DNA of 28,369 bases, from IMG/VR virus record IMGVR_UViG_3300042987_000727, positions 1-28,369 of that record; one strand, given 5' to 3'. The stretch is from a virus. The position numbers and the translations under genes are program-made. Under the pieces are notes generated by a model that did not search any database, was not told the DNA's origin, and saw only the letters and a list, made by a program, of their open reading frames with translations. Of the stretch, positions 9,037 through 27,237 are shown piece by piece. Within the stretch, counting starts at the first letter, position 1. Each line of letters opens with the position of its first letter.

Positions 9037-9062
9037 CCCCCGCCTATGTGCGGGGGTTTTTT
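9037..9062 (+). terminator. Rho-independent terminator of the rightward operon
   Basis: CCCCCGC (9037-9043) pairs with GCGGGGG (9050-9056) across a six-base loop, followed directly by six T (9057-9062). It ends the rightward transcript and overlaps the stop codon of the leftward giant gene. Read leftward, the hairpin is preceded by As and is followed by GAAAGTC rather than a U-tract, so it should work only for rightward transcription. Confidence 0.9.
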
Positions 9063-12000
9063 ATTTCAGCAAACCTTTAGCCTTCAGTGCATCGCTCAGT
9101 TCTTTATCGGGCACATCATTGTACTGCGGATACTTTTGCCTGACTTCTTCAAGCGTCATTTTTTCAGGGGGTTTAGGTTTTGGTTGTCCGTACTCAAGCA
9201 TAGGCGCTATACGCTCGCGCAGTCGTTTATCGATTCTTGCACCAAACGCTTCGGCTTCAGCTATTTGCTCTGCCCTTACCTCAAACGATGTCATAAGTTT
9301 TTCTGAAAAGTCACCATCCTCTGGCAACATGTCAGGGTACTTTTCGTAGAACTGAAGTGCTTTGTCTAAGGCCGTATCAAAACCTTTGGCGTTATCACGC
9401 TCAAGCCACAGACGGTTGAGAAGCCCAGTTTCTTTGGCTAAGATTTTTTGCTCTTTTTCTTTGGCTTGGATAGCAGATTTTTGTTTTAGAGCTAATTCTT
9501 CAGGCTGCAAACCCACAGCTTGCATGACTAGCATCCACTCGGAAAACTTTTCCGCTGCCAGTTGTTCTTCGCCGGACCGAGTGGTAGCTCCTTCGGTTCC
9601 GTAGCGATAAGCCTGTATCGGTTTAGCAAACAATGCAGGTAGTATTTTTTCCCAAGCTCGGCTGTACTGGCCTTCGCCAAATAACTTAGCAGCCTCGGCC
9701 CAGTTCATAGCAAGACCAACCACAGGGCCAGCATTTGCTATAACGTCTTGGATTAGCCCTTCGACAACATCAGGAGAGTAGCGTCCATCCCGATAGAACA
9801 TACTCAATGGATCGAGGCTGACGCGTTCAGATAACGAACCACCGATGAGCTGGCTTATTGGACCGCGAGCAAGCGACATGCCCCCTAACCGTTCATCAGC
9901 CCAGTTGCGGAACCAATTTAGGTAATTAGATTCTTCGTCTTCTTTATCATCATCAGAAGCTAACATCAAAAACATGGCAGGTAGCGCAATCCAGAAGAAC
10001 GGCATTGCTTCTAGACCACCGAACAAGAACGTAACGCCTAAGATACCTAAAAGTTCTTTCCCAGATTGTTTAGCTATATCACGTCTAAAGTTTTTGATGT
10101 CCTCCATCCTTTGATCTATCTCGGCTTGGGGGATTTTTTCCTGGATAAACCTGTCCCGTATATCGTTTAGTTCTTTTTTATCAAACAGAGGGCTAAGCGA
10201 AAGCTGCAAGGCACGCATGTAGTTGTACGTTGCCATAAAAGCGTACTGTTTGAACTTTAATAGCACGCTTAGTGGAACATTAGCAAACAACCGAGATTTC
10301 ATCTGTCGGCTAAAGTCACCAAGTGTTAAACCGGCAATATGCTTAGCTTCTTGAATGGCACCTTCAAAGGCTTCGTCAGGGGTGTAAGTCACCGGATTCC
10401 CGTTAGCATCGCGCTCTATAACGCCACGGGTATCCCGCTTAGGCGAGTTAAGCAATCGGTTGTATTCAAGCTCAAAAGCCGACATCAATGCAACTTCACG
10501 GTTAGCACGCTCGGACTGATGGAAAAGACCGCCTAAAACTTTTTTGATAATGTTGTACCGCGTGGTGTATAGCTCAGACGGTCTTTCAGTCAGATCAAAA
10601 ATATCGTTGGTTAAACTTACATCAATCTGCCCCTCAGCGATAAACCGGTCAGCAGCACGCTGCAACAAAGGGGAAAGTTTACCCCCTTCAACAATTGAGG
10701 GAAACTGCATTTGAAACATCAAACCTTTTGCAGCAGGCTTAAGCATGCGCCCAGGTGCTGTCTGCCAGTACCTCCCCATGTTTTTAAGCATGACTTCACT
10801 GGCTTCGGTGTAACCGTACTTACCACCAAGTTTAGAGCCAGTAAATACAGCAAAACCTAGTGTGTTTAAGAGAGCAGTAAAAGGCGCAGATAGCATCGAG
10901 AAAAACACAAACGTACCCGCAGTCCCAGCAGCTTTTGCTAAGAACGACTTATCCTCTGCGCTTAGAACTGTCTTAGTACGTGCCTCTAACTCGTTAACAA
11001 AGTCCCTGTACACAGCGCGTGCATCGGGCTTAAAGAATTCGTTAATGTAATCACGAGCCTTGTTGATGTTGTTGATGAAATCTTCACCATACTTGAACCG
11101 AGCCATCTGATACGCGCTGTGTACAGCCACGTCGGTGAACACTCGCAGCATGTCGCTGCTTGCACCCTGGACAGCTTTACGATTAATAAACATCTTCCGC
11201 ATACTTTGTTGCGGCAGCATGATGTAAATCAGTTGGTTCAAACTATCTTGCAGTTCTTTACGAACATCCTGAGCACTCTTAGTTGACGTAGCGCCAGTAG
11301 GAGGGACGATGGAATCTATAAGGTCTTGTACCTCTTTCAGTATCTGCGTAGACGCTAAGTTCTTAGAGAACAGTTCTGATATACCTGCGCCGAAGTCAAC
11401 GGTTTCGGCCAAAGCTTTTTGCTGTGCATTACCACTTTTAAGTTCCCGGATACGTGCAGCTCGTGAAAGCTCCCGAGTAACTTCGCTTTCAAATTCATAG
11501 AACTCTTTGAAGTTACCTTTACCAACTTGGAACCAATACTCACCAAAACGACGTAATGGAAAGTACGGAAATACCAACTTATCAGGAGCAAACTGCTCGT
11601 TTATTTTACGAATAGCTTCTTGGCGTTCAGCTTTGGGTAGCTTCAAGACCCGCTTCTTCATCTCGCGGATCATCTCTTGCAAGTTATTGTTGAAGTAATC
11701 TCTAACTCTACGGTATATAGCTTGGAACTCTGGATCAAGGCTAGCCCATGCAGCGTCGAGGTTGGCTATCCCTGTCGGACCTTTATCTGGGTCTTTACCG
11801 TTGATAGTGGCATCTAGCATGATTCTGCCAACTAACGTAGACTGCGCTGGCTTTTTGTTTTGAGCGTCGAGCCAGTCTTTTGCGATGATTTGAGCTTCAC
11901 CGAGCTTGCCCAAACGGAACGAAGTCATCTTGTCTACGATGTTGATCGCAGTTACCAATTGAGGAAATTTAAAACGCGTGATGTCCGCAAGCTGACGCAG

Positions 12001-15000
12001 CGTTGCAGAGAACAAGAACGCCCTACGTAGTTTGCTATTTATAGGGTTCCAAATTGCAGGTGCTAATGAACCAACTGCTTTCCCCCACGGCGTACGCCCT
12101 TTTAGCGCATCGTTCAATACGCCAGTCAGTGTTTTCGTTGCGTCTTCAGCGGTTCTCCACGGTGACTTACCACTAATAGGACCGCGAGGACCGCGAGGTC
12201 TTTTCTTACCCGCTACTATCGGCGGCTGACCGCCGGGAGGTGTTGGCGGTGGCTGGTTTAACGGTACATTTGTACCCGGCAATACGCCCGGAGGCGAAGG
12301 CTTGGGGAACTGTGGAGATTGATTTACAACTGTACCCGGCGGGTTGAGCGGACGAACAGGGGGTTGTTGGCCGGGAGGAAGCGACTGTGCAGACACCCCA
12401 GGTTCGCCCATAAGGATTGCATAGGCTGCTTCAATATCAGCAGTTACGCTTGGTGGGGTTCGTTGCCGTTCTTCAGCAGAAAGACGTAGACGTGCAGCAG
12501 TATTTCTGGCTTCGATTTCACCAGAAGCCATCAAATACAAGTCGTATTTAATATCTGATGCGCCGTAAGGGCCTTGTCTGACAGAAGCTACTAAGTCATC
12601 AATTTTTTTAGACGCGTCTTTTAATTTGTTTTTTAACTCATCAACTTTTTTTGTAGCCTCATCTTTTGCAGTTTTGGCGTTTTCTGTTTCGGTTTTAACC
12701 CTATTAGATAAATCAGCTCTCTTCGCATCTATTTGTTCATATAATATTGCTTCATCTACTCTACGGTATTTAATTTCATTTTCTAAGTTTTTAAGTTCGT
12801 TAGCGGTACGTTCGTAATCAGCAAATGGTAGATGTAGAATAGTACGTCTTTTACTATATAACCTATCTAAATCGTCTCGTATAGCCTTCTTACGAAGCTG
12901 TAACTTTGTTATTTCGTTTGTTGCGGATATAAACCAACCAAACTTTTTTACCTCGAAGAGTATATATTTATACTCTTCAGATGCCGGGTGTAACTCATTT
13001 TTAACTACGCTATTTAATTCTTTTTCAATTTTATTTTTTAATGCTATACGTTTGCCGAGTTCAAATTGCAACCCGATTAGATTATCAGCTACTTGTATTT
13101 TTTTACTAAGCTCGGCACCTTTAGATGTGTTTATTTTAGGGTCGTTTTCGTAGCGCTCTTTAAGTTTTTCTAAGTTATCTACGTTATTTAGACTTATAGC
13201 TTCAGACGAAGCGCCAGGACCAAAACCTTCTTTAATTTGAATTGCATGCTGTATTTCGTGAACTAAAGTGCGCTCAGGGTCAATTGCATATGGCGTTATG
13301 GTTATAGAATCCTCACTAACGGTGTAATACCCTTGTGTTTGATTAAAAAAATCAAAGAAACTAGGACGCTTAAACACAATTATATTTTTGAGGTCAGGGT
13401 AAGCAGCGTATAGTTTAGGGTGATCAAGTATCTCACCAAGCGTAGTACGTTGATCTTCTGGAACATTTCCTTTATTGTAAAAAACACTTGCGGTTGGCAC
13501 AGTCGCCCATTTATTAGCGTCAAACTTTGCTGTGCTATCGTCAACTTCAAAACGCCATTGACCATCCGTTTGGTCGTGCAGCCATCCCGTTTTGTTCCAG
13601 ACTTCAACTGGAGAAGCACCGGCTTTCTCCATCTTCTCAGCTTCTTGGAGGTTAGCTAATTTTCTAGACTTATCGTCGGCTACAGCAATTGGGTCATATT
13701 CGCTTTCTTCAAGCGCTTTCTTCCCGGCAAACATATAAAACCTAGATACGCTCGTAGCCAACATTTGTTTTGATTTAAACTTACCATCAGATTTAATAAG
13801 GCTATCTAATGCGCGAATGATTGGCGCGTCGGATGGCAGCCCAAGTTTGTCTTTTAGCGTAGCGACCAGCCCTTTAAGCCATTGCTTGAGCCTGCTGATA
13901 ACAGTCTTAGGCGCGTTGAACTTACCTTCTAAAATACGAGAAGCATTTACCGCCCAAAATTCTGAAGGGTTCAAATACTGATAGACGTTATAAAATACCT
14001 GCCCATCTACAAGCATTTTATAAGCTTCTTCATAAGCTTTTTTATCGTTATACAAAAGTGCTTTGTGTACCAGTTCCAAGTATTTGCGTTTAGGCGAACC
14101 ATAAGCAGCGCGGTTCTTAGCGTCAATCAGAGACTTGAGCCACAACTCACGTATTGCCGACTGCACACTCTCTGGCATCATGCGTTCAAGATGGTGCATG
14201 ATTTCATGTATAACCGTGTCTTTTTTAGTGCTTCCGGCAATAAGCCTCATCAGCCGCCGGAACTGCACATATTGTCCCGCTATATTGTCTTCCCCTTCTT
14301 TGGGGCTGCGTATGGATATAGCAAGATCATCAACAAGTGCTGGATTTTGTTTAATAAACCATTCAGCAAGTTCAAGAGCTTCTTCGGGCAACTGGCCGTT
14401 ACGCACCGCACGAAGCAGTCGTTCACGGATATTGAGCTGACCCCGCACCAAATCCGCAGGTACTTTACCTTCTTTAGCTGTTTCATCGTAAGCTGCGTTG
14501 GCCTCGGCAGCGTACATATCTGAATCAATCTGGCCTTCATTTAAAGCCTTACGTAAACGCCGAATAGTCCTACGTAACGATACGGGTGCAGTACCACCTT
14601 TATCAGATACGTCTGTTGCTCCAGTGATATCAAAAAAGTCTAAACCTTCCTCGCGCTCTGCTTCGATTTTTTCGCGCAAATCAAGTTGTGCGTTTTTAAG
14701 ATCTTTTTCTAAAGCATCAAGTCTATTCTCTAGCGCCTCAATGTTGCCATCTTCAGTTGCCGCAGCTAATTCAGCTTCGGTTTCGGCTATTGTTGCTTTT
14801 ATATTAGCTACACGGTCTTGAAGATCTTTTGTTGTAACTTCTTCAACTTTTGTAGGCTCTTTAGGGGTTAGCCTAAGTTCTTCATCGTAAAGCTGGTTAA
14901 TGCGTTCCGTTAAAGCATCGTATTTTCTACGGGCAGGTGAACGCGCAGCAGGGGGTTTACCTGTGGATGTACGTAGCGTTTGTTGCTCAGCTAGTAGTGC

Positions 15001-18000
15001 ATCCCTTTCTTGCCTAACTTGTTCAATAGTACGCTTGCCTGTAGCTAACTCTTGTAGTTTTGCTTGGGCTAACGCTATATCGTTTTGTAGGCTATCAATA
15101 GACTTTTGAAGTTTATCTTGAGAGAAATTTTTATATTGCCTGTCCTGCGCTAGACGTTGCGCTACTACGTTATACCCACCAGCATAAAGTTTGGTAAGCA
15201 GGTCGTTTAAATCAATCACATTTTGAGGCGCACCCGATTTACGACCGGCATTGTCAGGCGAAAAACCTGCCGCACGTATACGCTCAAACAATTGCCCAAT
15301 TAGATCGTTTACTGTATTGAGCACCCCCGACGCAGGGCCGCTGTTTTTAATTTCGTTACTGTACTGCCGCAGTAATGCAGCTTCCTTTGTTGAAGTAGTA
15401 CGGAACGTATCAGCCAGCGTACCTTTTAACTTTGACTCAGTAGTTGCTGGGGCTTCAAAAGCTTGCAGCTTTTGAGTAATAAAATCGACAGACTTTTGAT
15501 CGCTTTTAACCTTACCCCGCAGTGGACCTTGCAGTCTGTTTAATATACCTTCACCAAAAGCTACGGCCTGTGGGTTTGGTAGGGCTATGAGGCGTTGCGC
15601 TAAGTCGTACTCCTGCTGTTCAAACTCATTAAAAGGTTGTGTGACTTCAGTAGAAGGAGCTTCAGCAGGTTTTTTAGCGGCTCTTTCAGCACGATCAGTT
15701 TTGTCCCACTGCCCCATAAGCGTGTCAATCTGTTCGCCAAGTGCGTCGTATTTAGCACGGGCTTTACTTTTGACAGCGGGGACTCTGCCGTTTTTCGTTA
15801 GCAAAGCTAGTCTTTGCTGCTCAAGGTCTCTTATTTCGTCTTGTAGTTGATCGGCGGTCTTGGCAGCAGGGGTGGGGGCACCTGCCACTTCTGTTCCTTC
15901 AGCAGGCGCTGCTGCTCCCTCTTCTTTTGCTTGCTGGGCTTCGGTGGGCGTAACGGCACTGGGGGTTTCCTTTTTGAGTTTGGCTTTTCCTACTGCGGAT
16001 TCAACTGGAGTTCCTCTACCAAGTGCGTAGACATCGCTGTAGTTGGAATACTTCTTTTCTTTATCTACTTGGTAAGCTTCTGAAGCCATAGGCCCAATAT
16101 CAACAACCTGCCTAGCCACAAGAACTTCGCCTGGGGCAAGGGATCTTGCGCGGCGATCAAACTCTACCTTGTCAAATCTACGAGATCCGTAACGATCTAC
16201 AGTTACAGGAAATTCAATTAGCGTATCTGCTTTAACGTAAATCGGGACAATAGAACCGGGAGTTCCAAAAGTTTCATCTGGCATACCGTATGTGGCAGCG
16301 ACATCTGGACTGTCTGACACAAAAACATTGTAGCCTTCCCTTGGTTCAGCATTAATTGCACCCTCTTTGTCACCTTGTATTCCACGGTACAAAACTAACG
16401 GTTCACCATTTTTATCCGTAATAAATTCGTTTGTTTTTGTTAATGGTTTTTCTACTGCACCCTGTGGGGTTTCCTCTTTCTTTAATCTACGTGCGTCGTT
16501 AACAATTTCACGCACAATATCAACATCATCTTGGGTGTATGTTGCGTTGGGGTCTATAAATAATGTACGGAACTCACCCGCAGCTACAGGATCAATCGTT
16601 GCGTATTCGTCGAGTAGGGTATCGATTTCCTTGCGTACGTCTAATGCAGGAGGCGGTGCTCCCGCTCCCTGTACAGGCTCCACAGCAGGAACCGAAGGCA
16701 CTCCCACTGAAGGTGGCTCAGCTCCTGCAACTCCTTCGGGGGCGAGTGTTCGTTCGGGTCTTCCAGAAATTGGAATGCCCTCTCCACTAATCGTAGGGGA
16801 AGGTCGTTGACTAGGTGGTATGGTGACATCGCGTTCTCCTTCACCTAACTTGTCTATTGCCCTACGTGCACCGCTTTTAGCTAGTGCAGCAGCACCTGCA
16901 ACGCCACCAATCGTGCCGGTTTGCAGTACGGTTTGTAGGACGGTATCGGATAACTGTTTAATAAGATCGGCAGCGGTGCCTTCTTGCCTAAGACCAATGG
17001 GTAACTTCTCTATACCAAATTGAGCGGCGGTAGTTGCCATCTCTGCGGGTACTTCTTTGGCGATTGCTTTACCAAAATAGTTGCTAAGAAAGTCAGCTAA
17101 CTCATCAGTGCGTACGCCTTTAGCAGCAGCACGCATACCAGCTATCTGTTCAGATAGCCCAAACCGCGAGAAATATATCTCTGCACCGGTTAGTAGCGAT
17201 GCGCGTAATGCAGACTCGGAAGCAGACTGGCCTTCTCGTTTACCTTCAGAGTACGCCTGCCCAAACGAAGTAACCCCAATATTTGCCAGCACCGGTAACG
17301 TTGTGCCTGTAAATAAACTTGCTAAAAGCCCTGGACCCTGCTGGGCGAGCGAATTAAGCATGTTCTCAAACTGGTCAACCAGAGGAGATCGACTCTTAGG
17401 CTCGCCAAGCTGCTGCAAGAATGCTTCAGATTTTTTACCTACCTGTCCGTAATACCTAGCGGCTTCTTCGTTACCTGTTAGATCAGCAATAGCTTCCGCA
17501 GTACCAGCAGCACCTTGTTTAAGTCCTTCGCTTGCACGAGCTAGCGCCCTACCTGCTATACCTTCTTTGCGGGTCTCAAGGGCTTCAACAGCTTCGGGGG
17601 ATGGTTCTTTGGCTACGGTAAGTGCGCGTGGCCCCATACCTCGCTCAATCTCTTGTTGAGCTATGAGGTCGGCAACCTCATAGTTAGCGCCTTGACTGAC
17701 AAGCTGCTCTACTCTTGCTTCGCGCCTAGGGTCTAACCGTTTAGCTGAAGGTGCAGTAGACTTAAAGCGCTCGTACTCAGCATCGAGAGCACGCACCACA
17801 TTACCAATGTAGTCGGTACGTTTAGCCAAAACCTCACGCTGTTGAGGCGTAGCCATGTCGTACATCGACCGTATCCTGTCGTACTCTTGCTGGCTAACCG
17901 GAGCACCCCGTGTCTCTATCGGTGCAGTCGGCTCAGGCTTAAAGCCTTCCATAACAGACGCACGTCGAGAAGAAGTAGGGGCAGGTGTTATAGGTGCAGT

Positions 18001-18195
18001 TGCAAACGCCGACTCCATGCCAGTGATAGGTTCAGGCTGAGCAAAAGGCTCGGCAAGTGTCAAGCCAATCTGCGAGTAGAAGTCATCCTTAGTTATCGCG
18101 GACGCATAGAACTTCTCGTACAAACTGTCCGCTAACTGCTTGTCAGGAACGTCGTTGTACTGTGGGTACTTCTTGCGAAATTCTTGTAGTCTCAT
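9061..18195 (-). CDS. Giant polyvalent internal virion protein
   Basis: 3,044 residues, ATGA-coupled to the preceding gene. Domains in order: a YPQYNDVPDK docking-like motif (residues 1-30); hydrophobic Ala/Gly-rich helices (about 270-440); an ADP-ribosyltransferase of the polyvalent-protein kind (about 570-745: LYRG with Arg604, SDSPDVAATYG at 627-637, ending SDVYALG); coiled coils (780-1180) with an internal repeat; zincin 1 (HEIMHH, His1330-Glu1331-His1334, with Glu1412 in SEFW as a possible third ligand); zincin 2 (HEIQH at 1646-1650, GEIEARN with Glu1893) preceded by the GWLHD...WRFEVDD domain; a Pro-rich linker (1930-2010); and an LPD38-like C-terminal region (about 2030-2900) with membrane segments near 2424-2460 and 2712-2745. 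The docking motif returns at the end. Such proteins are thought to be packaged and ejected with phage DNA; its targets are unknown. Confidence 0.85.
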   Translation of the reverse strand: MRLQEFRKKYPQYNDVPDKQLADSLYEKFYASAITKDDFYSQIGLTLAEPFAQPEPITGMESAFATAPITPAPTSSRRASVMEGFKPEPTAPIETRGAPVSQQEYDRIRSMYDMATPQQREVLAKRTDYIGNVVRALDAEYERFKSTAPSAKRLDPRREARVEQLVSQGANYEVADLIAQQEIERGMGPRALTVAKEPSPEAVEALETRKEGIAGRALARASEGLKQGAAGTAEAIADLTGNEEAARYYGQVGKKSEAFLQQLGEPKSRSPLVDQFENMLNSLAQQGPGLLASLFTGTTLPVLANIGVTSFGQAYSEGKREGQSASESALRASLLTGAEIYFSRFGLSEQIAGMRAAAKGVRTDELADFLSNYFGKAIAKEVPAEMATTAAQFGIEKLPIGLRQEGTAADLIKQLSDTVLQTVLQTGTIGGVAGAAALAKSGARRAIDKLGEGERDVTIPPSQRPSPTISGEGIPISGRPERTLAPEGVAGAEPPSVGVPSVPAVEPVQGAGAPPPALDVRKEIDTLLDEYATIDPVAAGEFRTLFIDPNATYTQDDVDIVREIVNDARRLKKEETPQGAVEKPLTKTNEFITDKNGEPLVLYRGIQGDKEGAINAEPREGYNVFVSDSPDVAATYGMPDETFGTPGSIVPIYVKADTLIEFPVTVDRYGSRRFDKVEFDRRARSLAPGEVLVARQVVDIGPMASEAYQVDKEKKYSNYSDVYALGRGTPVESAVGKAKLKKETPSAVTPTEAQQAKEEGAAAPAEGTEVAGAPTPAAKTADQLQDEIRDLEQQRLALLTKNGRVPAVKSKARAKYDALGEQIDTLMGQWDKTDRAERAAKKPAEAPSTEVTQPFNEFEQQEYDLAQRLIALPNPQAVAFGEGILNRLQGPLRGKVKSDQKSVDFITQKLQAFEAPATTESKLKGTLADTFRTTSTKEAALLRQYSNEIKNSGPASGVLNTVNDLIGQLFERIRAAGFSPDNAGRKSGAPQNVIDLNDLLTKLYAGGYNVVAQRLAQDRQYKNFSQDKLQKSIDSLQNDIALAQAKLQELATGKRTIEQVRQERDALLAEQQTLRTSTGKPPAARSPARRKYDALTERINQLYDEELRLTPKEPTKVEEVTTKDLQDRVANIKATIAETEAELAAATEDGNIEALENRLDALEKDLKNAQLDLREKIEAEREEGLDFFDITGATDVSDKGGTAPVSLRRTIRRLRKALNEGQIDSDMYAAEANAAYDETAKEGKVPADLVRGQLNIRERLLRAVRNGQLPEEALELAEWFIKQNPALVDDLAISIRSPKEGEDNIAGQYVQFRRLMRLIAGSTKKDTVIHEIMHHLERMMPESVQSAIRELWLKSLIDAKNRAAYGSPKRKYLELVHKALLYNDKKAYEEAYKMLVDGQVFYNVYQYLNPSEFWAVNASRILEGKFNAPKTVISRLKQWLKGLVATLKDKLGLPSDAPIIRALDSLIKSDGKFKSKQMLATSVSRFYMFAGKKALEESEYDPIAVADDKSRKLANLQEAEKMEKAGASPVEVWNKTGWLHDQTDGQWRFEVDDSTAKFDANKWATVPTASVFYNKGNVPEDQRTTLGEILDHPKLYAAYPDLKNIIVFKRPSFFDFFNQTQGYYTVSEDSITITPYAIDPERTLVHEIQHAIQIKEGFGPGASSEAISLNNVDNLEKLKERYENDPKINTSKGAELSKKIQVADNLIGLQFELGKRIALKNKIEKELNSVVKNELHPASEEYKYILFEVKKFGWFISATNEITKLQLRKKAIRDDLDRLYSKRRTILHLPFADYERTANELKNLENEIKYRRVDEAILYEQIDAKRADLSNRVKTETENAKTAKDEATKKVDELKNKLKDASKKIDDLVASVRQGPYGASDIKYDLYLMASGEIEARNTAARLRLSAEERQRTPPSVTADIEAAYAILMGEPGVSAQSLPPGQQPPVRPLNPPGTVVNQSPQFPKPSPPGVLPGTNVPLNQPPPTPPGGQPPIVAGKKRPRGPRGPISGKSPWRTAEDATKTLTGVLNDALKGRTPWGKAVGSLAPAIWNPINSKLRRAFLFSATLRQLADITRFKFPQLVTAINIVDKMTSFRLGKLGEAQIIAKDWLDAQNKKPAQSTLVGRIMLDATINGKDPDKGPTGIANLDAAWASLDPEFQAIYRRVRDYFNNNLQEMIREMKKRVLKLPKAERQEAIRKINEQFAPDKLVFPYFPLRRFGEYWFQVGKGNFKEFYEFESEVTRELSRAARIRELKSGNAQQKALAETVDFGAGISELFSKNLASTQILKEVQDLIDSIVPPTGATSTKSAQDVRKELQDSLNQLIYIMLPQQSMRKMFINRKAVQGASSDMLRVFTDVAVHSAYQMARFKYGEDFINNINKARDYINEFFKPDARAVYRDFVNELEARTKTVLSAEDKSFLAKAAGTAGTFVFFSMLSAPFTALLNTLGFAVFTGSKLGGKYGYTEASEVMLKNMGRYWQTAPGRMLKPAAKGLMFQMQFPSIVEGGKLSPLLQRAADRFIAEGQIDVSLTNDIFDLTERPSELYTTRYNIIKKVLGGLFHQSERANREVALMSAFELEYNRLLNSPKRDTRGVIERDANGNPVTYTPDEAFEGAIQEAKHIAGLTLGDFSRQMKSRLFANVPLSVLLKFKQYAFMATYNYMRALQLSLSPLFDKKELNDIRDRFIQEKIPQAEIDQRMEDIKNFRRDIAKQSGKELLGILGVTFLFGGLEAMPFFWIALPAMFLMLASDDDKEDEESNYLNWFRNWADERLGGMSLARGPISQLIGGSLSERVSLDPLSMFYRDGRYSPDVVEGLIQDVIANAGPVVGLAMNWAEAAKLFGEGQYSRAWEKILPALFAKPIQAYRYGTEGATTRSGEEQLAAEKFSEWMLVMQAVGLQPEELALKQKSAIQAKEKEQKILAKETGLLNRLWLERDNAKGFDTALDKALQFYEKYPDMLPEDGDFSEKLMTSFEVRAEQIAEAEAFGARIDKRLRERIAPMLEYGQPKPKPPEKMTLEEVRQKYPQYNDVPDKELSDALKAKGLLK
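9106..9159 (-). repeat. C-terminal copy of the YPQYNDVPDK motif
   Basis: Encodes MTLEEVRQKYPQYNDVPD near the end of the giant protein. It pairs with the copy at 18142-18195. Of 54 aligned bases 37 are identical. In the half encoding YPQYNDVPD all seven differences fall on third codon positions, so the repeat is kept at the protein level. Confidence 0.9.
14878..14976 (-). repeat. Internal coiled-coil repeat of giant protein, copy 2
   Basis: Encodes residues 1074-1106 of the giant protein (LRTSTGKPPAARSPARRKYD...). It aligns to residues 798-830 with 16 of the first 30 positions identical, including the KYDAL block and the preceding Pro/Ser/Arg pattern. Confidence 0.7.
15706..15804 (-). repeat. 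Internal coiled-coil repeat of giant protein, copy 1
   Basis: Encodes residues 798-830 (LLTKNGRVPAVKSKARAKYD...), 276 residues before the second copy. Each copy ends a coiled-coil block, which suggests duplication of a whole helical segment. Confidence 0.7.
18142..18195 (-). repeat. N-terminal copy of the YPQYNDVPDK motif
   Basis: Encodes MRLQEFRKKYPQYNDVPD, the first 18 residues of the giant protein. Versions of this motif are common at the N-terminus of large phage virion proteins. The same nine-residue core, YPQYNDVPD, recurs about 3,000 residues later. Confidence 0.9.
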
Positions 18196-19956: not shown

Positions 19957-21177
19957 TTAGCTACCCATTAAACGGGAAAGCCCAAGAGCACCAAGCCCTG
20001 CACCCGCTAGTTGAGAGGCAGCAGATGGAGGCGCAGCGTATGTAGTTTGTGTTGAAGATAGACCCACAGGAATCCCACGCATGAGGTTACTGTAATACCC
20101 CAACTGCTCCATCGGGTAGTCGCGCTGTCGCAAGAAGTCCGCATATGCTTGGTCAAGAAGCTGCTGTTGATAGCCACGCTGTTCTGCACCTACTGCACCT
20201 TGGGCTTGCAGCCTACGTAACTGAGCTTCTTGTTGCGCTGTTCCTAACCCGCCAAGTGTCTGTGCTCCAGCTAAAGATTGTTGAAGTCCTTGGAGACCCA
20301 AATTAGCACCAAACTGTCTTGACTGTTCCCGCGCTTGTTGCGCTTGCATTTGTGCTTGTAAGTTTTGTTGCCCTACGGTAAGTCCGGCTTGTTGGTTAGC
20401 TAATGCAGCACGGAGAGCGTTTTCTGCAGACATTCCTTGGGCTTGTAACCGATTAGCAGCGTTTTGAACTGCTGCTTGTTGCTGGTTGGTAAGGTTTGCT
20501 AATCCTACTTGAGTTTGAGCTGCACGATCACGTTCAAACTGCTGTTGCGCTTGTTCAAAAGCTTTTTGAGACCCAGTAGCTTGAATATCTCCAAGTTGAG
20601 TCCGTAACCCACGCTCACGCTCTCCAGTAAGAAGCGCTTGTCGCGCACCACCATAACTTCCCTGTCTAGAAGAAGCTAAACTCTGCCCTAATTGCCCTAA
20701 TTGTGCGTCACGTAGTGCTTCCCGCTTTTGTACATCAACTACATTTTGCATGTAAGGAGACATGTACTGTTGGGCAGCTTCAGAAGTAAATTCTCTTGGG
20801 CCAGCTAATTGAGCAGCTTGAATATCTGGAGCAGAAATATTTTGGGAATACACTCTTTCAGCCGGACCCATTTGAGCGCCAAACTGCCCAGGCTGATAAT
20901 TTTGCCCAGCTTGCATAGACTGCCTAGCCGCGTTGTAAGCAATATTAGATGCGTCATAAAGCTGAGACGGGTCTTGCATCCTCATAATTTCTTGTTGAGT
21001 CTGCAGTTGCCCAGGAGTAAAGTACGCAGTTCTTTCGTTTTGATATTCTTGGTACGGTCTATAAGAATACCCCTGCGCCCTTTGCATAATGTTTTCAAAA
21101 TAAGGGCGTGCGTACTCCGGCAGATTAGTCTGCGTAACTGTCTGACTTGCTGGTTGGCTACCGCCGCCTTTACCCAT
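19957..21177 (-). CDS. Gln/Ala-rich virion protein, 406 residues
   Basis: The start MGKGGGSQPASQTVTQTNLP followed by EYARPYFENIMQRAQ, PYQEYQNERTAYFTPGQLQ is typical of a structural protein family of podophages. The central part is very rich in Gln and Ala (QAQGMSAENALRAAL, QQNLQAQMQAQQAREQSRQF) and should form long helices. The C-terminus is YAAPPSAASQLAGAGLGALG, a Gly/Ala stretch suited to membrane or lipid contact. Position between the GNAT-like and 586-residue genes matches gp14 of T7-type internal cores, though this equivalence is by position only. A good AGGAG lies seven bases before the ATG. Confidence 0.65.
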   Translation of the reverse strand: MGKGGGSQPASQTVTQTNLPEYARPYFENIMQRAQGYSYRPYQEYQNERTAYFTPGQLQTQQEIMRMQDPSQLYDASNIAYNAARQSMQAGQNYQPGQFGAQMGPAERVYSQNISAPDIQAAQLAGPREFTSEAAQQYMSPYMQNVVDVQKREALRDAQLGQLGQSLASSRQGSYGGARQALLTGERERGLRTQLGDIQATGSQKAFEQAQQQFERDRAAQTQVGLANLTNQQQAAVQNAANRLQAQGMSAENALRAALANQQAGLTVGQQNLQAQMQAQQAREQSRQFGANLGLQGLQQSLAGAQTLGGLGTAQQEAQLRRLQAQGAVGAEQRGYQQQLLDQAYADFLRQRDYPMEQLGYYSNLMRGIPVGLSSTQTTYAAPPSAASQLAGAGLGALGLSRLMGS

Positions 21178-21610
21178 GATTAACTCCTAAACCTGCCTCA
21201 GCCGCAGGTAACTGAAAAGTTTGCCATAACGGTTTATGTCCGTCATCTTTAAATACCTTAGTCCAACCTAACCGAGCAGTAGCTTCTACACCGTCGCATT
21301 GGTTATCGTAAGCAAAATGTTGGAGAAGCTTAAGCATTGAAGGCTTCCATGTATCTAACTCTACTCCACCACAAAACACCATCGATAAGTATTTTTTACG
21401 TGGATAATGACAAAAATGCGTTACAACTGCGCCTTTAATCCCTGACTCATTAAATGCGATCCAAAGTGTGTGGTCATACTCCATAATCGAATCAAGAATA
21501 TCTTCTACTTCGTAACGCCCATGTGTATATTCAGCCGCGCCTTGAAGATACCCTTCAACTTGGCTCCAAACTTCTTTAACGTACTCACTAGGGACCATTG
21601 TGCATTGCAT
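21170..21610 (-). CDS. GNAT-like protein, T7 gp13-like position
   Basis: 146 residues from the ATG at 21610 (MQCTMVPSEYVKEVW), chosen because GGAG lies seven bases upstream in the minus strand and because the upstream extension in this frame (Arg-rich, low similarity) is only the shadow of the hydroxylase gene. The pattern VPSEYVKEVWSQVEGYL...LWIAFNESGIKGAVVTHFCHYPRK...LLQHFAYDNQCDGVEATAR fits small phage proteins with an acetyltransferase (GNAT) fold, some of them homologues of T7 internal protein gp13. The acetyl-CoA loop (Q/R-x-x-G-x-G/A) is not evident, so it may be structural rather than catalytic. It shares 106 bases with the preceding gene and overlaps the next by eight. Confidence 0.65.
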   Translation of the reverse strand: MQCTMVPSEYVKEVWSQVEGYLQGAAEYTHGRYEVEDILDSIMEYDHTLWIAFNESGIKGAVVTHFCHYPRKKYLSMVFCGGVELDTWKPSMLKLLQHFAYDNQCDGVEATARLGWTKVFKDDGHKPLWQTFQLPAAEAGLGVNHG

Positions 21611-22326
21611 TCTTCTTCTCCGTAGAACTGTTTCTCCCACCGCTTGTGCCGGAAGTACGGAATCCAAATGTATGGAAACAGCACCGACATGCGCAGGATC
21701 GCCCAGTTGATGAACTTCCACGGTTGCGGAAGAGGACGCATCACATCCAAGAACAGAATAGCCCGAATCTGATCGGTCTCGTTTACGGCGATGTGCTCAT
21801 ACGTGTCGTCAAACAAGACTACCTTACCTTCCTCCCAGTGGTACTTTTCCCCACCGTTGACCAACGTACACTCTTTGTTGCCGGGAATGACTACTCCCAA
21901 GTGCATACGCAGGATGCCAGACCACGGACCTTCATGTGGCATGAGCATTTTATGGGGGCCAAGCACAGATATGTAAGCTGAAATTACATACTTGTGCCTG
22001 TTCAAAACCTCGAACGTCTTTGGCGCGTACTGCTGGTTGCGCCCGAAATTCACGCCAGCCGCCTTGAAGAAAAACATCCGCCACTTGTCGTCGTTGGAGA
22101 TGTACGTCTGGTCAGGCGAGATGCTTTGGAACGGCGCAAAGTCGTCGTATCGCTTAAGAATCGTTTTAAGTTCGGCTTGAATGGCTGGAAAATTGTCTTC
22201 CAACTCTTTTGCTACCGGGAAAGAATAGGGGTCGAAGAACTTCTTGTCCCCCAACAGACAATGCTTGTGGAAAGGCTTCTTCAAAAGCCGCTCAATCCAC
22301 AGAGTGCTTATCTGTAATTCCATCAT
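21505..22326 (-). CDS. Aspartyl/asparaginyl beta-hydroxylase-like 2OG-Fe(II) oxygenase
   Basis: 273 residues. The core matches the AspH family (PF05118), which includes human AspH and the lipid A hydroxylase LpxO. HEGPWSGILRMHLGVVIP gives Fe ligand His131, Gly133 where most 2OG oxygenases have a carboxylate, and Arg140/His142. FDDTYEH gives the second Fe ligand His178, and Arg188 (RAILFLDV) is ten residues later, the spacing seen for the 2OG-binding Arg in AspH. All catalytic positions are therefore present. It would hydroxylate a protein side chain or a lipid; the substrate is unknown. After RPLP an aromatic, hydrophobic helix (about 205-225) precedes a basic tail. The start overlaps the previous stop (ATGA). 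Lying among virion genes, it may modify a virion protein or the host envelope. Confidence 0.85.
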   Translation of the reverse strand: MMELQISTLWIERLLKKPFHKHCLLGDKKFFDPYSFPVAKELEDNFPAIQAELKTILKRYDDFAPFQSISPDQTYISNDDKWRMFFFKAAGVNFGRNQQYAPKTFEVLNRHKYVISAYISVLGPHKMLMPHEGPWSGILRMHLGVVIPGNKECTLVNGGEKYHWEEGKVVLFDDTYEHIAVNETDQIRAILFLDVMRPLPQPWKFINWAILRMSVLFPYIWIPYFRHKRWEKQFYGEEECNAQWSLVSTLKKFGAKLKGIFKARLNIHMGVTK

Positions 22327-23045
22327 GCTGGCAGATACCTGTCTGCATTTGAATCCTGCCCACGTTTAGCTTTCTTACGTTCTCTATGTACCCGCTCCAT
22401 CATGGCGTAAAGCTTCTTAGCGCCTGCGTTTGATGAACCATTACCGATTTCTGAAACTGTACGTGCGTCGATGACAAACTCACCATCAGCCAATCGAGCA
22501 GGCTGTGCGTTACCAATCGTAGCAGGGATAGAGTCACTTGTACCATCCCCCGGACCTTGAAGATATCGCCCCGCCGCAGCTTTAATTACGCCACCAGAAG
22601 CCATAGGGGGGTAATAGTAATCATCATATGATGGAGTAGGAGTAGGAGTAGGAGTAGGAGGAGGGGCAGTTTCAACAGGCCGGTAAAAATAGATTCGTTC
22701 ACCTCGACCACCTTTTCCCCCCATCCCCCCTGCAAATGGCGACCTGTAATTTTCCGCAGATTGAGGTACAAATGACTCAGCTTCAGGGTAAAACTGCTGA
22801 ACATAACGTTGTTGAAATGGCGCTGCGTAAGGGTTAGTTAGATATGACGATTGTTGCGGTACCCCTCGATACAACATATCTCTTGACGGCTGTGCGCTAG
22901 GTTGTTGGTATTGCCCATAAATAGCATCTAATCCAGATAAAGGCGAAGCATATTGATTTTGAGACGTTTGTTGCGAAGTTATACCACCTTTACCACTAGA
23001 ACGCGGCATTACTTGAGATTTTAATGCTGAAGAACCCTTACCCAT
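22323..23045 (-). CDS. Virion-associated protein with LADGEFVIDARTVSEIGNG domain
   Basis: 240 residues. The N-terminal half is low-complexity, rich in Gln, Ser and Tyr, and includes a Thr-Pro repeat (PTPTPTPTP) encoded by a hexanucleotide repeat. The C-terminal 90 residues (ASGGVIKAAAGRYLQGPGDG, SIPATIGNAQPARLADGEF, NGSSNAGAKKLYAMMERV) form a conserved domain found in many phage structural or tail-associated proteins; its function is not known to me. It is followed by the hydroxylase (ATGA overlap) and preceded by the 276-residue gene, two bases away. Confidence 0.7.
   Translation of the reverse strand: MGKGSSALKSQVMPRSSGKGGITSQQTSQNQYASPLSGLDAIYGQYQQPSAQPSRDMLYRGVPQQSSYLTNPYAAPFQQRYVQQFYPEAESFVPQSAENYRSPFAGGMGGKGGRGERIYFYRPVETAPPPTPTPTPTPSYDDYYYPPMASGGVIKAAAGRYLQGPGDGTSDSIPATIGNAQPARLADGEFVIDARTVSEIGNGSSNAGAKKLYAMMERVHRERKKAKRGQDSNADRYLPA
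22633..22656. repeat. Hexanucleotide repeat (GGAGTA)x4
   Basis: Four perfect GGAGTA units followed by an imperfect GGAGGA unit. On the coding (minus) strand this reads TACTCC repeats, encoding alternating Thr and Pro in the linker of the 240-residue virion protein. The unit is a multiple of three, so copy-number change would alter linker length without a frameshift. Confidence 0.85.
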
Positions 23046-23047
23046 TT

Positions 23048-23878
23048 TTAGCCCCTTGTGAATCCCGGATACGGGTTAGATGGTTCAAAATAGTTGTACT
23101 CACTCGATATTTTTCTTGGGTCTTTTTGTATCGGGTTGTACACACGCGACATCGGTAGCGCAGGTGGTTTAGCTTCGTACTTCTCAGGTTCGGGTAATTT
23201 AACATCAGGTGGACGCATAGCCTCACTTACCAATGGATAGGCCGCAGCCATCGCACCGTATTTACCTCCGTACTGCCCCAACAAATTACTACCTAAATTA
23301 GATAAACCACCGGGCTGACCTAACGTAGCAAGGCTTCCTTGAGCTTGGTCTAAAAGTGGTTTTGCGGCAAAATCCTTTATAGCTGCGTCTTTAGCCGCCA
23401 TTAACGAACCTTCCCCAGCTCCAAAAACTGCACCTGCGGGGTTAGCCCCCATACCAGCTTCAATAAGACCTGGATGTGTCGCTGTCGCTAACTCCTGCAT
23501 CCCCGCAGCTTGTGCCCCAAGCGACCCAGCACCACTAAGCGCACCACCCAATCCAGCACCACCGAACGCACCAAGGCCAGCCATAAAGCCTTTACCAAGA
23601 TCGCCTGTACGAATTGTTTCGCCGCCACCAACAATTCCTGCTGCCATAATAGGAGGCATCCCAGTAAAGAAAGTAAGACCTGCACCAATGATTGTCGGTA
23701 GTAATCTGTCTAAGAAGCCAGCTTCAGGGAGACCAGTTCTTGGATTAATACTAAGAGACCCACCTTGAGCCATAGCAAGAGCTTGTAACCCGCCAACCTC
23801 TCTGGGTGTCATATGCACTAACATGCTGTCGTTGCCTCGACCCATGCTAGCTAGTTGTTGAGCAGAATAGATAGACAT
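23048..23878 (-). CDS. Gly/Ala-rich virion protein, MTPREVGGLQALA type
   Basis: 276 residues. The start MSIYSAQQLASMGRGNDSML, with VHMTPREVGGLQALAMAQGG and then SLSINPRTGLPEAGFLDRLL, matches a family of structural proteins from uncultured aquatic phages. It is followed by long Gly/Ala-rich hydrophobic stretches (PTIIGAGLTFFTGMPPIMAA and GLGAFGGAGLGGALSGAGSL) that could insert in membranes, as ejected internal proteins do. The C-terminus is Pro-rich (PEPEKYEAKPPALP). AAGGA precedes the ATG by six bases. It is the first gene after the only sizeable gap (53 bases) in the late operon. Confidence 0.65.
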   Translation of the reverse strand: MSIYSAQQLASMGRGNDSMLVHMTPREVGGLQALAMAQGGSLSINPRTGLPEAGFLDRLLPTIIGAGLTFFTGMPPIMAAGIVGGGETIRTGDLGKGFMAGLGAFGGAGLGGALSGAGSLGAQAAGMQELATATHPGLIEAGMGANPAGAVFGAGEGSLMAAKDAAIKDFAAKPLLDQAQGSLATLGQPGGLSNLGSNLLGQYGGKYGAMAAAYPLVSEAMRPPDVKLPEPEKYEAKPPALPMSRVYNPIQKDPRKISSEYNYFEPSNPYPGFTRG

Positions 23879-23955: not shown

Positions 23956-24813
23956 GATATTAAAAAATGCGCTGACCAAGTTGTTATTTGCTGACCCAAT
24001 TGCTGAAGCCCCAATGCAATTTTTTTCAGGTACCACGTAAGGGTTAGCGAAGTCATACTGCACAGAACCGTTATTGATTGCAACTACTGCGCCGACCCGT
24101 AAAACTCCGTCAGGTCCATGCTGTTTTAAATATCCAGTAATTCCAGTAGTACCGGTAGCTTGCCCTGCAGTAAAAGTCCCTTCAAGCAAATACGCTGTGT
24201 ATCCAGCAGGTACACAATAATGAGCAGTTGTCCGATTGTTATATCCCGTAGCAATGATGTCGTATAACGTAGCCCCTACTTTAGCTGTAATCTCTCCAGC
24301 ATTAGCCCCACCGGAACCAACAGTTGCCACGTAAAACTGATTGACATACATATAAGAGTTTACAGTCGTCACCCCAGTAGTGCCGTTCATCGTAACGGTT
24401 TCACTAACAACTTCATAGTTTTCATCAAGCCCTTCAATATACACAGTACGTGCGCCTGTGCCAACAGGGTCACCATCATCATCTGTACTGGTTGAAACAA
24501 TCGTAAGCTGAGAATCGGTTGTAGGGTGTGGAATCAATCCACCATCAGGCCAGATAGTTTCTTCGGTCTGGTCAACGTCTGGGTTATACCCAAAAACACT
24601 AAAAGAGCTATACCCTGGTACTAAGCCTTGAGCTACTCTGGTGTAAAAGGGAACCTGCATATCATTGACCTCGGTAGCAACTTGGTTTAGAAAAGTATCA
24701 AGCCGGTTAAAGTAAAGTCGCAAAATTCTATTTAGTTCATTTTGTTGACGAACATCATACTGGGGGGATGGTAGTGGAAGTGCCGGAGCAATAAAGTTTT
24801 TAAGTAAAGTCAT
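23932..24813 (-). CDS. Virion structural protein with helical N-terminus and beta-rich body
   Basis: 293 residues. Residues 1-60 are helical and polar (NELNRILRLYFNRLDTFLNQV). The body is beta-rich with TDSQLTIVSTSTDDDGDP, GTGARTVYIEGLDENYEVVS, ETVTMNGTTGVTTVNSYMYV and VGSGGANAGEITAKVG, a pattern shared by structural proteins of marine and freshwater phages. The C-terminal third (PAGYTAYLLEGTFTAG...VLRVGAVVAINNGSVQYDF) is also beta. It is coupled to the tail-hub gene by an ATGA overlap and probably forms part of the tail or its receptor-facing end. The exact role is unknown. Confidence 0.7.
   Translation of the reverse strand: MTLLKNFIAPALPLPSPQYDVRQQNELNRILRLYFNRLDTFLNQVATEVNDMQVPFYTRVAQGLVPGYSSFSVFGYNPDVDQTEETIWPDGGLIPHPTTDSQLTIVSTSTDDDGDPVGTGARTVYIEGLDENYEVVSETVTMNGTTGVTTVNSYMYVNQFYVATVGSGGANAGEITAKVGATLYDIIATGYNNRTTAHYCVPAGYTAYLLEGTFTAGQATGTTGITGYLKQHGPDGVLRVGAVVAINNGSVQYDFANPYVVPEKNCIGASAIGSANNNLVSAFFNILLVQDGF
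23941..23958. repeat. Inverted repeat overlapping the possible late promoter
   Basis: ATCTTGT and ACAAGAT form a perfect 7-bp inverted repeat around a four-base centre. It lies in the last codons of the 293-residue gene and covers the proposed -35 box. It could be an operator or an mRNA hairpin; no U-tract follows it, so it is not a terminator. Confidence 0.55.
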
Positions 24814-26414
24814 CGTCTACCATCCTGTCTAACATCAAGACGATGTGACCCAGACTGCCATTGAACGCCTAAGCCATCTGAAGAAATTTTAAAGGCCATC
24901 TGGCGTCCACGCGCACGCACAAACACTTGCTCCGTATACTGATCCAATGTCGCGTATGTCGAAGCTACGTTTTGTGAATCTGAAGCGGTGTTTGCATACG
25001 CACTTCCAGAAAACCGTTTGGGCCGCATGGTAAGCGTTACTGTAGGAGTGGCAGCAGTTGACCCACTAAAACTAAAATCAGGAAGAATCCTACGAGTGAG
25101 CATAAATTGCTCGCCGTCCCCAAGATCATAGTCAGACGACTGAATATAAGATGTCATCGGGGCATCGCCATCATTAACCCCATATTCATGTCTATACTCA
25201 TATCCTACAGATTCATTTTGGCCTGTATACATACCAACAGGATTATCGCGTAGCGCAGTATCAAGCCAAGCTGTACGTACTAAAGTTCCGTAATACCAAA
25301 CACCTTCTAAATGATTAAAGATAACGTACCTATCGTTCCAATCTGAATTTGCGCTAGGATAAAACCACCATATTTCTGTGAACCCTTCATTTGTGCCGCT
25401 TACAATTTGATCTGCTTGGCTAAAGTTTATGTCTTGAAATACATACTGTCTTAAGGTACATGGCAATGTCTGCACCTGTCCCGAGTACACATAAAACTTA
25501 TCTTGCCCCATCCAGTAAGTCACATTGTTGGCTGTAGTAACAGCTCGTGGGCCTATTATTGATATATTGTCAGCTAGTTCTTGCAGGGAAAAAACGTCTA
25601 GAGTCCCCGTAAATTGCAATGAATACAAAGAAGAGTTTGTAAATACTAGTATTTCCTGTCTTGTAGCTATGCCCCGAACGATTTTTGAGCCGCGTGAAAC
25701 TCGAATAAAACCGGCTGAATTAGTAATCAGCGGAGTCCAATTTTGTGGTTCGTTTTGATTAGCCCAACGTATAAGTAATGGGTCAAAATCAGTGGAGTTA
25801 CCCGCATAGGGTTGACACCCTAAAGCAAGAAGATGTTTATCATTTTGGGACACAAGAACTTGCATTGCTGCTGTCGGTACGTCTGAAGCGCCAACAAGAG
25901 AACTAAGCAAAACGGCGCGGTTATCCAACGCAGTTGAAATAGAAATACCTCGTTCCCAATAATATATAGCTCCGTTACGGATGTTCATTACGAGATCGTT
26001 GTCGAAGTTATCAAACCACCAATCTCGTTGAGGTAATGTAATTGGTGTAGACCCACTTAACCCCCAAGGAGAAATACCCCAACTCCCACTGCCCCACCCA
26101 TAACCTACAGTAGCTGCGGCATAGCCAGACTCAATAGCATAATATCCGTTAGTTAACGATCCCCCGCTACCTATATCTGAAGAATTAGCCACAACAGGTA
26201 CAATTTGAGATTTATCTGTGGATCTTGCTTGTATAGTATATGTGTTGGAGTTAGTTACTGTTATTTCATAGTCTTGATTTAATACTTCAGCAGTAATATT
26301 TCCACCAAGCGATTGTGCTTGTGTAAAAGTTACAAAATCTCCAGTTACCGAACCAAAAGCAGGATCAGTTACCGTTATAGTTGAAGACCCATTAGTTGCA
26401 CTGAAAGTAATCAT
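24810..26414 (-). CDS. P22 gp10-like tail hub / DNA stabilisation protein, C-terminal part
   Basis: 534 residues. It starts with a beta module (ITFSATNGSSTITVTDPAFG, LGGNITAEVLNQDYEITV), then WGxGxWGxxxWG-type repeats (YGWGSGSWGISPWGLSG) and a body rich in regularly spaced Trp and strands (RDWWFDNFDNDLVMNIRNG, LLIRWANQNEPQNWTP, EIWWFYPSANSDWNDRYVIF), consistent with the beta-propeller of the P22 gp10 family, which closes the portal and carries the tail needle or spike. In related phages the family is one protein that begins with the segment encoded by the preceding gene. Here the ATG overlaps that gene's TGA (ATGA). Thus this is probably the second polypeptide of a split tail-hub gene. Confidence 0.75.
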   Translation of the reverse strand: MITFSATNGSSTITVTDPAFGSVTGDFVTFTQAQSLGGNITAEVLNQDYEITVTNSNTYTIQARSTDKSQIVPVVANSSDIGSGGSLTNGYYAIESGYAAATVGYGWGSGSWGISPWGLSGSTPITLPQRDWWFDNFDNDLVMNIRNGAIYYWERGISISTALDNRAVLLSSLVGASDVPTAAMQVLVSQNDKHLLALGCQPYAGNSTDFDPLLIRWANQNEPQNWTPLITNSAGFIRVSRGSKIVRGIATRQEILVFTNSSLYSLQFTGTLDVFSLQELADNISIIGPRAVTTANNVTYWMGQDKFYVYSGQVQTLPCTLRQYVFQDINFSQADQIVSGTNEGFTEIWWFYPSANSDWNDRYVIFNHLEGVWYYGTLVRTAWLDTALRDNPVGMYTGQNESVGYEYRHEYGVNDGDAPMTSYIQSSDYDLGDGEQFMLTRRILPDFSFSGSTAATPTVTLTMRPKRFSGSAYANTASDSQNVASTYATLDQYTEQVFVRARGRQMAFKISSDGLGVQWQSGSHRLDVRQDGRR

Positions 26415-26764
26415 GGAGTAACAGTACCCGTTGAACCTGTAGCACTAACACCAGAAAGTGAAATACTACTAATCGAAGTATTTTGCAGGGGAGTAATGTT
26501 ATAAAACTGCCCGCCTGTTTCAATATAAACGTGGTTGTTTGTACCAACCGCTAGAAGATTATCGCTGTATGACGTAATCCAATTAAATATTTGTCTTGAA
26601 GTACCAAAAAAGAAATAGGGTGTAGCTTTTTGCCATCCGCCTAGTTTTTGCGGATACCCAGAAAAAAATCTAATTTTATCGCACTCATACCAACCACCTT
26701 CACCTGAGTAGCTAGTTTGATCTCTGTTTATACCAGGGCGAAAATTAAGTTTAAGAAAAGGCAT
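26411..26764 (-). CDS. P22 gp10-like tail hub protein, N-terminal part
   Basis: 117 residues from the ATG at 26764, chosen because GAGG lies directly upstream and the family begins MPFLKLNFRPGINRD; an in-frame start at 26851 lies inside the lysozyme gene. The segment includes GEGGWYECDKIRFFSGYPQK, LGGWQKATPYFFFGT and NLLAVGTNNHVYIETGGQFY, the normal start of P22 gp10-like proteins from aquatic phages. The frame ends at a TGA overlapping the next ATG. The two parts need a -1 shift, or one added base, to join. The join is not at an obvious slippery heptamer. Confidence 0.75.
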   Translation of the reverse strand: MPFLKLNFRPGINRDQTSYSGEGGWYECDKIRFFSGYPQKLGGWQKATPYFFFGTSRQIFNWITSYSDNLLAVGTNNHVYIETGGQFYNITPLQNTSISSISLSGVSATGSTGTVTP

Positions 26765-26766
26765 TT

Positions 26767-27237
26767 TTACCTCATCAGCGCAGCTTCTGCGGCACGGCGG
26801 CGAGTAAGACCGGGGAGAACTCTTCCGGCAGCTTTGTTCCATTTGACGCATTCAGTCGCTGCGCCATCCCAATCCCCCGCATCAATACGTTTTTTGAACG
26901 TCGAGATTCTGTAATTTCCTAAGCCACAATTGTATGCCCAGCTAGTCACTGCGGCAATGCGTCGAGGTGAAGCATTTGGAAACGTCGGAGAAAGCTTGCA
27001 GATGCCTACATAAAAGTAATCAATGTGGTGCTCTAAGGCATCCTCACATTGCTGCATGGTCCATATCGTCCCAGGGTTAATATCAGGGCCGGTTGACCCC
27101 CAGCCAATGGTCCAAGGATGCCCACGGGTTCCGGGGTCGGGATAAGAGGTTACGTTTCCATCAGGCAGACGTTTAGCCAGCCCTTCAAAGGGTTTAATAA
27201 GCACATTTTTAGCTAGCTTTTTAGCCTCATCGTTCAT
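26767..27237 (-). CDS. Phage lysozyme (GH24 endolysin)
   Basis: 156 residues. The N-terminal FEGL...YPDPGTRG.PWTIGWGSTG region supplies the GH24 catalytic set: Glu18 (general acid), Asp34 and Thr43, equivalent to Glu11, Asp20 and Thr26 of T4 lysozyme with a longer spacing between the first two. The middle (ASPRRIAAVTSWAYNCGLG) and the C-terminus (RIDAGDWDGAATECVKWNKA, LPGLTRRRAAEAALM) are also typical of the family. It cleaves the MurNAc-GlcNAc bond of peptidoglycan. No signal peptide is seen, so it should depend on the holin encoded just upstream (ATGA overlap). The tail-hub gene starts two bases after its stop. Confidence 0.9.
   Translation of the reverse strand: MNDEAKKLAKNVLIKPFEGLAKRLPDGNVTSYPDPGTRGHPWTIGWGSTGPDINPGTIWTMQQCEDALEHHIDYFYVGICKLSPTFPNASPRRIAAVTSWAYNCGLGNYRISTFKKRIDAGDWDGAATECVKWNKAAGRVLPGLTRRRAAEAALMR

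Follow-up and report, generated by a model that had tools for sequence, protein, structure and literature searches.

An OlsC-like Fe(II)/2-oxoglutarate hydroxylase, putatively acting on membrane lipids, in the late operons of aquatic podophages

The window analysed here, a stretch of 28,369 bases that makes up an entire virus record, carries on its minus strand a 273-aa ORF (22326-21505) predicted to encode a hydroxylase of the OlsC-like branch of PF05118. On balance, we favour the reading that this protein is an accessory enzyme, made late in infection and passed between aquatic podophages, that would hydroxylate an acyl chain on a membrane lipid of the host. This substrate is proposed as the most likely one on account of the homology of the protein to OlsC and, more distantly, to LpxO. 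Phages modify LPS sugars and alter host metabolism; to our knowledge, no characterised phage enzyme hydroxylates membrane-lipid acyl chains.

The product of the ORF matched the Pfam family PF05118 (Asp_Arg_Hydrox) over the full length of the profile (1-157 of 157), with an E value of 6.6e-41 and 140 bits against a cut-off of 22.6. The residues S120, H131, G133, R140, H142, H178 and R188 are all present, S120 aligning with the serine situated 11 residues ahead of the first His in human AspH. The initial annotation had credited this ORF, without giving its strand, with the full AspH active-site set, which was confirmed, and the spacing that it claimed (9 residues from 131 to 140 and 10 from 178 to 188) is identical in human AspH (5APA). 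The AlphaFold model of the protein (pLDDT 90.7) found human AspH as its top PDB fold match (E 2.3e-15, TM(target) 0.80 to 5APA). Beyond the AspH fold, the model contains an N-terminal helix (residues 3-21) and two C-terminal helices (203-214 and 218-235); these additional helices are basic and partly hydrophobic, as would be expected of a peripheral membrane enzyme. The last ~34 residues, after approximately aa 240, are not conserved, and homologues from other groups stop at aa 237-240. Since this tail is unconserved and overlaps the next gene in another frame, the real domain is considered to span from aa 1 to ~240. Judged by its fold and residues, the window gene is predicted to encode a genuine iron/2-oxoglutarate hydroxylase.

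The window comprises early/replication genes on the plus strand up to ~9.0 kb, including those for a SNF2-type helicase and a DUF927 primase, and a late block spanning 28.3 to 9.1 kb of the minus strand, in which the hydroxylase gene is located (Table 1). The ATGA overlap at its start is predicted to couple its translation to that of the preceding late gene. The small gene directly downstream of the hydroxylase matched a phage 'putative acyltransferase' (E 4e-14) and a phage 'putative acetyltransferase' (E 2e-7) in tblastn searches, and it belongs to a PHROG of unknown function. A GNAT identity was rejected for this gene, which did not match the annotated GNAT of CRP-901. It overlaps the 3' end of the hydroxylase gene by ~100 bases, and both genes are missing together in locus L276; it is a possible functional partner of the hydroxylase. 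Elsewhere in the late block, the stabilization protein matches that of DSL-LC04 and the 'constituent protein' of CRP-901, and the isolates closest by this protein are phages of Roseobacter, Pelagibacter and a gammaproteobacterium. Two virion genes (24810-26851 and 22323-23878) are each split into two ORFs in the window where relatives have one (616-712 aa; ~560 aa), through either a genuine split or a frameshift/stop introduced by sequencing. A single late protein of 3044 aa occupies positions 9061-18195; in a relative (L035), the giant protein has an LPD38 domain, and in group D phages the gene immediately upstream of the hydroxylase encodes a giant protein of the same cluster as that of L035. 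Neither a tRNA in the window nor a near relative was found that would point to a host.

Table 1. Coordinates of the hydroxylase gene and of neighbouring features in the window
Feature	Position	Strand	Evidence
Predicted OlsC-like Fe(II)/2-oxoglutarate hydroxylase, conserved domain (aa 1-~240)	21605..22326	-	PF05118, OlsC profile, AlphaFold model, dN/dS
C-terminal tail of the hydroxylase ORF, unconserved, out-of-frame overlap with the next gene	21505..21604	-	ORF coordinates
ATGA stop/start overlap of the hydroxylase with the upstream virion gene	22323..22326	-	junction ...GCATGATGG
Putative acyl/acetyltransferase-like small gene (about 140 aa), directly downstream of the hydroxylase	21170..21607	-	tblastn
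Late gene upstream of the hydroxylase, corresponding to the C-terminal part of a protein encoded by a single ORF in relatives	22323..23045	-	weak tape-measure/virion match
DNA ejection-type protein	19957..21177	-	phrog_4287, E 2e-11
Virion structural / head 'stabilization' protein	24810..26414	-	phrog_3287, E 1.1e-49

The branch of PF05118 to which the enzyme belongs was assessed with curated profiles, a tree and an alignment. The top curated profile for the window protein was OlsC (NF052565), with 194.4 bits over aa 21-239 against a curated cut-off of 450 bits and nearly whole coverage of the profile (positions 35-254 of 259, including the C-terminal extension), followed by LpxO (NF033391) with 104 bits against a cut-off of 500. 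The same ranking was obtained with two other phage members. Conversely, the phage profile gave 204.5 bits for OlsC, 190-217 for the nearest bacterial OlsC-like proteins, 97-121 for LpxO and mostly 44-93 for long (TPR-type) proteins. In the alignment, a pre-barrel segment ('FQDIS-DQ...DD+WK/R') and a C-terminal helical segment are common to the phage and OlsC-like proteins only.

A phylogeny against AspH, LpxO and OlsC had been suggested with the initial annotation, and in the maximum-likelihood tree of 58 rows, in which human AspH is represented by a partial sequence on a long branch, the phage proteins formed one clade (100/100) with a stem of 1.16 changes/site. This clade, together with the OlsC-like and LpxO proteins, was split from human AspH and the TPR-type bacterial AspH-like proteins (100/98), and LpxO formed its own clade (100/100; stem of 2.66 changes/site), which included three rows fetched by other profiles. 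The branching order among the OlsC-like groups, including the sister of the phage clade, lacks resolution, and their stems are long. Of the initial AspH/LpxO-type label, the family and the intact active site stood and the type did not: sequence comparisons place the enzyme as neither AspH-type nor LpxO-type, in a phage clade of its own on the OlsC-like/LpxO lipid-hydroxylase side.

A single-sequence scan of IMG/VR retrieved 57 relatives, and a profile scan retrieved 298, of which 80 were kept. None of the seven catalytic positions varies among 123 viral members, which amount to 82 distinct sequences, and pairwise dN/dS among viral homologues is about 0.02-0.1 wherever dS is unsaturated; the hydroxylase is under strong purifying selection. 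A survey of actinobacteria yielded a match in only 1 of 198 genomes, and no members of the window's clade were found among 50,697 phage records. The matches in phage records that were opened and annotated corresponded to bacterial lpxO or to a divergent protein of Pseudomonas phage Itty13; the unannotated ECO95 and S.Kent 'phage' fragments matched at the same level as bacterial lpxO records. The INPHARED matches Acinetobacter phage MD-2021a and a Salmonella record were discarded as bacterial-chromosome lpxO. Records CAKLQH020000005.1 and AFYI01000007.1, listed as phage, carry bacterial chromosomal DNA (lpxO adjoining fadAB/uvrC or fdhF) and are mislabelled. The sole near cellular match, L059 in a Euryarchaeota MAG (SP209, PBMQ01000020.1), is considered a misbinned phage contig because of its terminase-hydroxylase-c3-portal order and its place inside the phage clade, and an archaeal host was rejected. 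What looked like a 384-aa fusion of hydroxylase and lysozyme in L027/L029-L034 arose from reading through a stop, the two being separate adjacent genes.

The hydroxylase gene occupies different late positions across phages. In phages of the window type, it lies between a virion protein and the acyltransferase-like/ejection gene pair. In others, it is situated between terminase and portal (L042-L057, L173-L193), ahead of the terminase-portal pair (L019-L026, L144-L156; also L036-L038, where the arrangement differs), or flanked by a giant virion protein and a lysozyme-spanin cassette (L027-L034, L159-L172), the exception being group B (L013-L018, L020), where it adjoins DNA polymerase A. The location inside a late/virion block that had been pointed out initially is borne out and recurs in different phage groups; the idea of a late module holds as far as this recurrent placement (terminase/portal, lysozyme/spanin, ejection genes), but the gene has no constant virion partner and is found once beside a DNA polymerase. 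In group G, the gene adjoining the hydroxylase (L050:2432-3124, P0001) matched phrog_3704 'ferredoxin', a doubtful label for a protein of 230 aa with few cysteines and no Pfam match.

A second, related late block on the 87-kb record that also holds L041 encodes an 88%-identical stabilization protein and lacks both the hydroxylase and its downstream gene, the upstream virion protein being followed directly by the ejection protein. Among window-type phages, the enzyme is 70-93% identical, in contrast to 25-66% for most of its neighbours, and its third-codon-position GC in the window is 0.66 versus 0.30-0.39 in the adjacent late genes. The contrasts in identity and GC and the relative lacking the gene suggest an accessory cassette exchanged between phages, and the hydroxylase is best read as an accessory late cassette swapped between aquatic podophages. 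As a separate observation, the 87,451-base IMG/VR record G541 (L276-L280) contains two related but distinct phage late/early blocks, with two DUF927-type primases that are 37% identical and two stabilization proteins that are 88% identical, and is probably a chimeric or concatenated assembly.

These genomic data bear on the best-surviving alternative, which we nevertheless consider improbable, namely an AspH-like hydroxylase acting on Asp/Asn of a virion or host protein. AspH is the best solved fold with identical active-site spacing, the gene usually resides within late/virion blocks, and fold-level 'aspartyl/asparaginyl hydroxylases' are present in other viruses. However, the 273-aa ORF contains the oxygenase domain only, with no TPR substrate-binding domain, and falls outside the AspH clade; moreover, the virion neighbours vary between phage groups (with a DNA polymerase neighbour in group B), a relative retains the virion genes without the hydroxylase, and the enzyme is better conserved than most of its virion neighbours. 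The lack of a constant virion partner, the absence from a close relative and the exchange between phages argue against a dedicated virion substrate. The virion-protein substrate put forward initially is weakened, a sister phage with the 88%-identical stabilization protein having the block but no hydroxylase gene.

Ranked next, and slightly more doubtful, is an LpxO-type activity, which would place a 2-hydroxyl on a secondary acyl chain of host lipid A, altering the receptor or outer membrane and hindering re-adsorption. The match to the LpxO profile and the position of LpxO on the same side of the tree are consistent with it; nevertheless, the score is far under the cut-off, LpxO is a separate long-stemmed clade, and an alignment inspected by eye revealed that the phage protein lacks the hydrophobic N- and C-terminal segments and the insert of LpxO.

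A small-molecule hydroxylase, acting on an amino acid or peptide intermediate and altering a host metabolite or defence signal, comes third and also seems unlikely. It is suggested by two OlsC-like bacterial relatives, one from Mycobacterium (L066) adjoining an NRPS thioesterase/MFS gene and one from a Verrucomicrobiota MAG (L061) adjoining aminotransferase/cysteine dioxygenase genes; given these neighbours, the substrate may be a small molecule, and the OlsC-like branch may not be lipid-only. On the other hand, no biosynthetic partner was seen in the phage genomes, the terminal helices are basic/hydrophobic, and the best match is a lipid enzyme family. Finally, a non-functional passenger or annotation artefact, to which only the unconserved overlapping tail of 34 aa could point, is practically negligible given the low dN/dS and the invariant catalytic residues.

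Returning to the hydroxylation of a membrane lipid, we counted in its favour the active site, the OlsC profile as top match, the side of the tree, the segments in common with OlsC-like proteins, the terminal helices and the purifying selection, and against it the score below the OlsC cut-off, the lack of resolution and long stems of the OlsC-like branching, and the neighbours of L066 and L061. Also counting against it, the top-ranking Pfam families in two related phage genomes included no other lipid-pathway family. The enzyme would be a membrane-associated non-haem Fe(II)/2-oxoglutarate dioxygenase. By homology to AspH, Fe(II) would be held by H131 and H178, with a glycine in place of the usual acidic ligand, and both sequence and fold suggest that 2-oxoglutarate is bound by S120/R188 with R140/H142. 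Its coupling and operon position indicate that it may be synthesized late and co-translated with virion proteins. Phylogeny and architecture point to hydroxylation of an acyl chain, probably at C-2, at the cytoplasmic face of the inner membrane, the candidate lipid being an aminolipid such as ornithine lipid, or a phospholipid, and less likely lipid A. The conjectured benefit would be that the envelope is strengthened or altered before lysis, that rival phages are hindered, or that the timing of lysis is tuned.

The family is deeply conserved, one scan giving about 300 viral occurrences, with strong purifying selection and repeated siting in late operons, and the question is therefore directly testable by lipid mass spectrometry. 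The closeness of this phage-only branch, which had no name before, to bacterial hydroxylases of membrane lipids (ornithine lipid/lipid A) suggests that many aquatic phages may chemically modify the membrane lipids of their hosts at a late stage of infection. A broader proposal, which we regard as tentative, is that a widespread family confined to phages, and passed among aquatic podophages, hydroxylates lipid acyl chains and so remodels the host membrane in late infection, acting in lysis timing or rival exclusion. If true, the annotation habit of calling such phage genes protein (Asp/Asn) hydroxylases would be corrected.

Compared with known systems, the phage enzyme shares the fold (TM 0.80 to 5APA) and active-site spacing of human AspH and its TPR-type bacterial relatives, but it lacks their TPR domain, has extra N- and C-terminal helices and lies in a separate clade (100/98). 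LpxO, the lipid A 3'-secondary acyl hydroxylase of Salmonella and Acinetobacter, has the same PF05118 catalytic core and residues and lies with the phage enzyme on one side of the tree, but differs in its separate clade, the hydrophobic segments at both ends and the insert before its C-terminus. OlsC, the ornithine-lipid ester-linked acyl 2-hydroxylase of Rhizobium, Ochrobactrum and Brucella microti, whose activity has been established for homologues (PMC5767591), has in common with the phage enzyme the PF05118 core, the 'FQDIS...' segment, the C-terminal helical extension and the absence of TPR and of LpxO-type hydrophobic ends. Unlike OlsC, the phage enzyme scores 194 bits against the cut-off of 450, belongs to a distinct phage clade and is encoded in phage late operons; its identity to the nearest bacterial OlsC-like proteins is about 34-39%.

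The initial expectation that either a virion-protein or a lipid A substrate would be a new use of this enzyme in a phage proved too strong. 'Aspartyl/asparaginyl beta-hydroxylases' have been described in cyanophages P-HM1/P-HM2 (PMC3037559), in all pelagimyophages (PMC7029224) and in Limnohabitans phage DC33 (PMC12195039), and since PF05118 proteins were already reported in cyanophages and pelagimyophages, the enzyme class is not new in phages. The P-HM1 copies (E 7e-20 and 1e-10 against PF05118) and the HTVC008M copy (very weak, E 3e-4) are remote relatives of the window protein, and the P-HM1/P-HM2 and pelagimyophage proteins were not recovered by tblastn with it. The DC33 protein, known here by its published annotation only, is phage-encoded and of the same broad Pfam family. 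No description of a lipid acyl hydroxylase from a phage emerged from a full-text search of the open-licence literature. What appears to be new here is the phage-only clade and its lipid-type affiliation.
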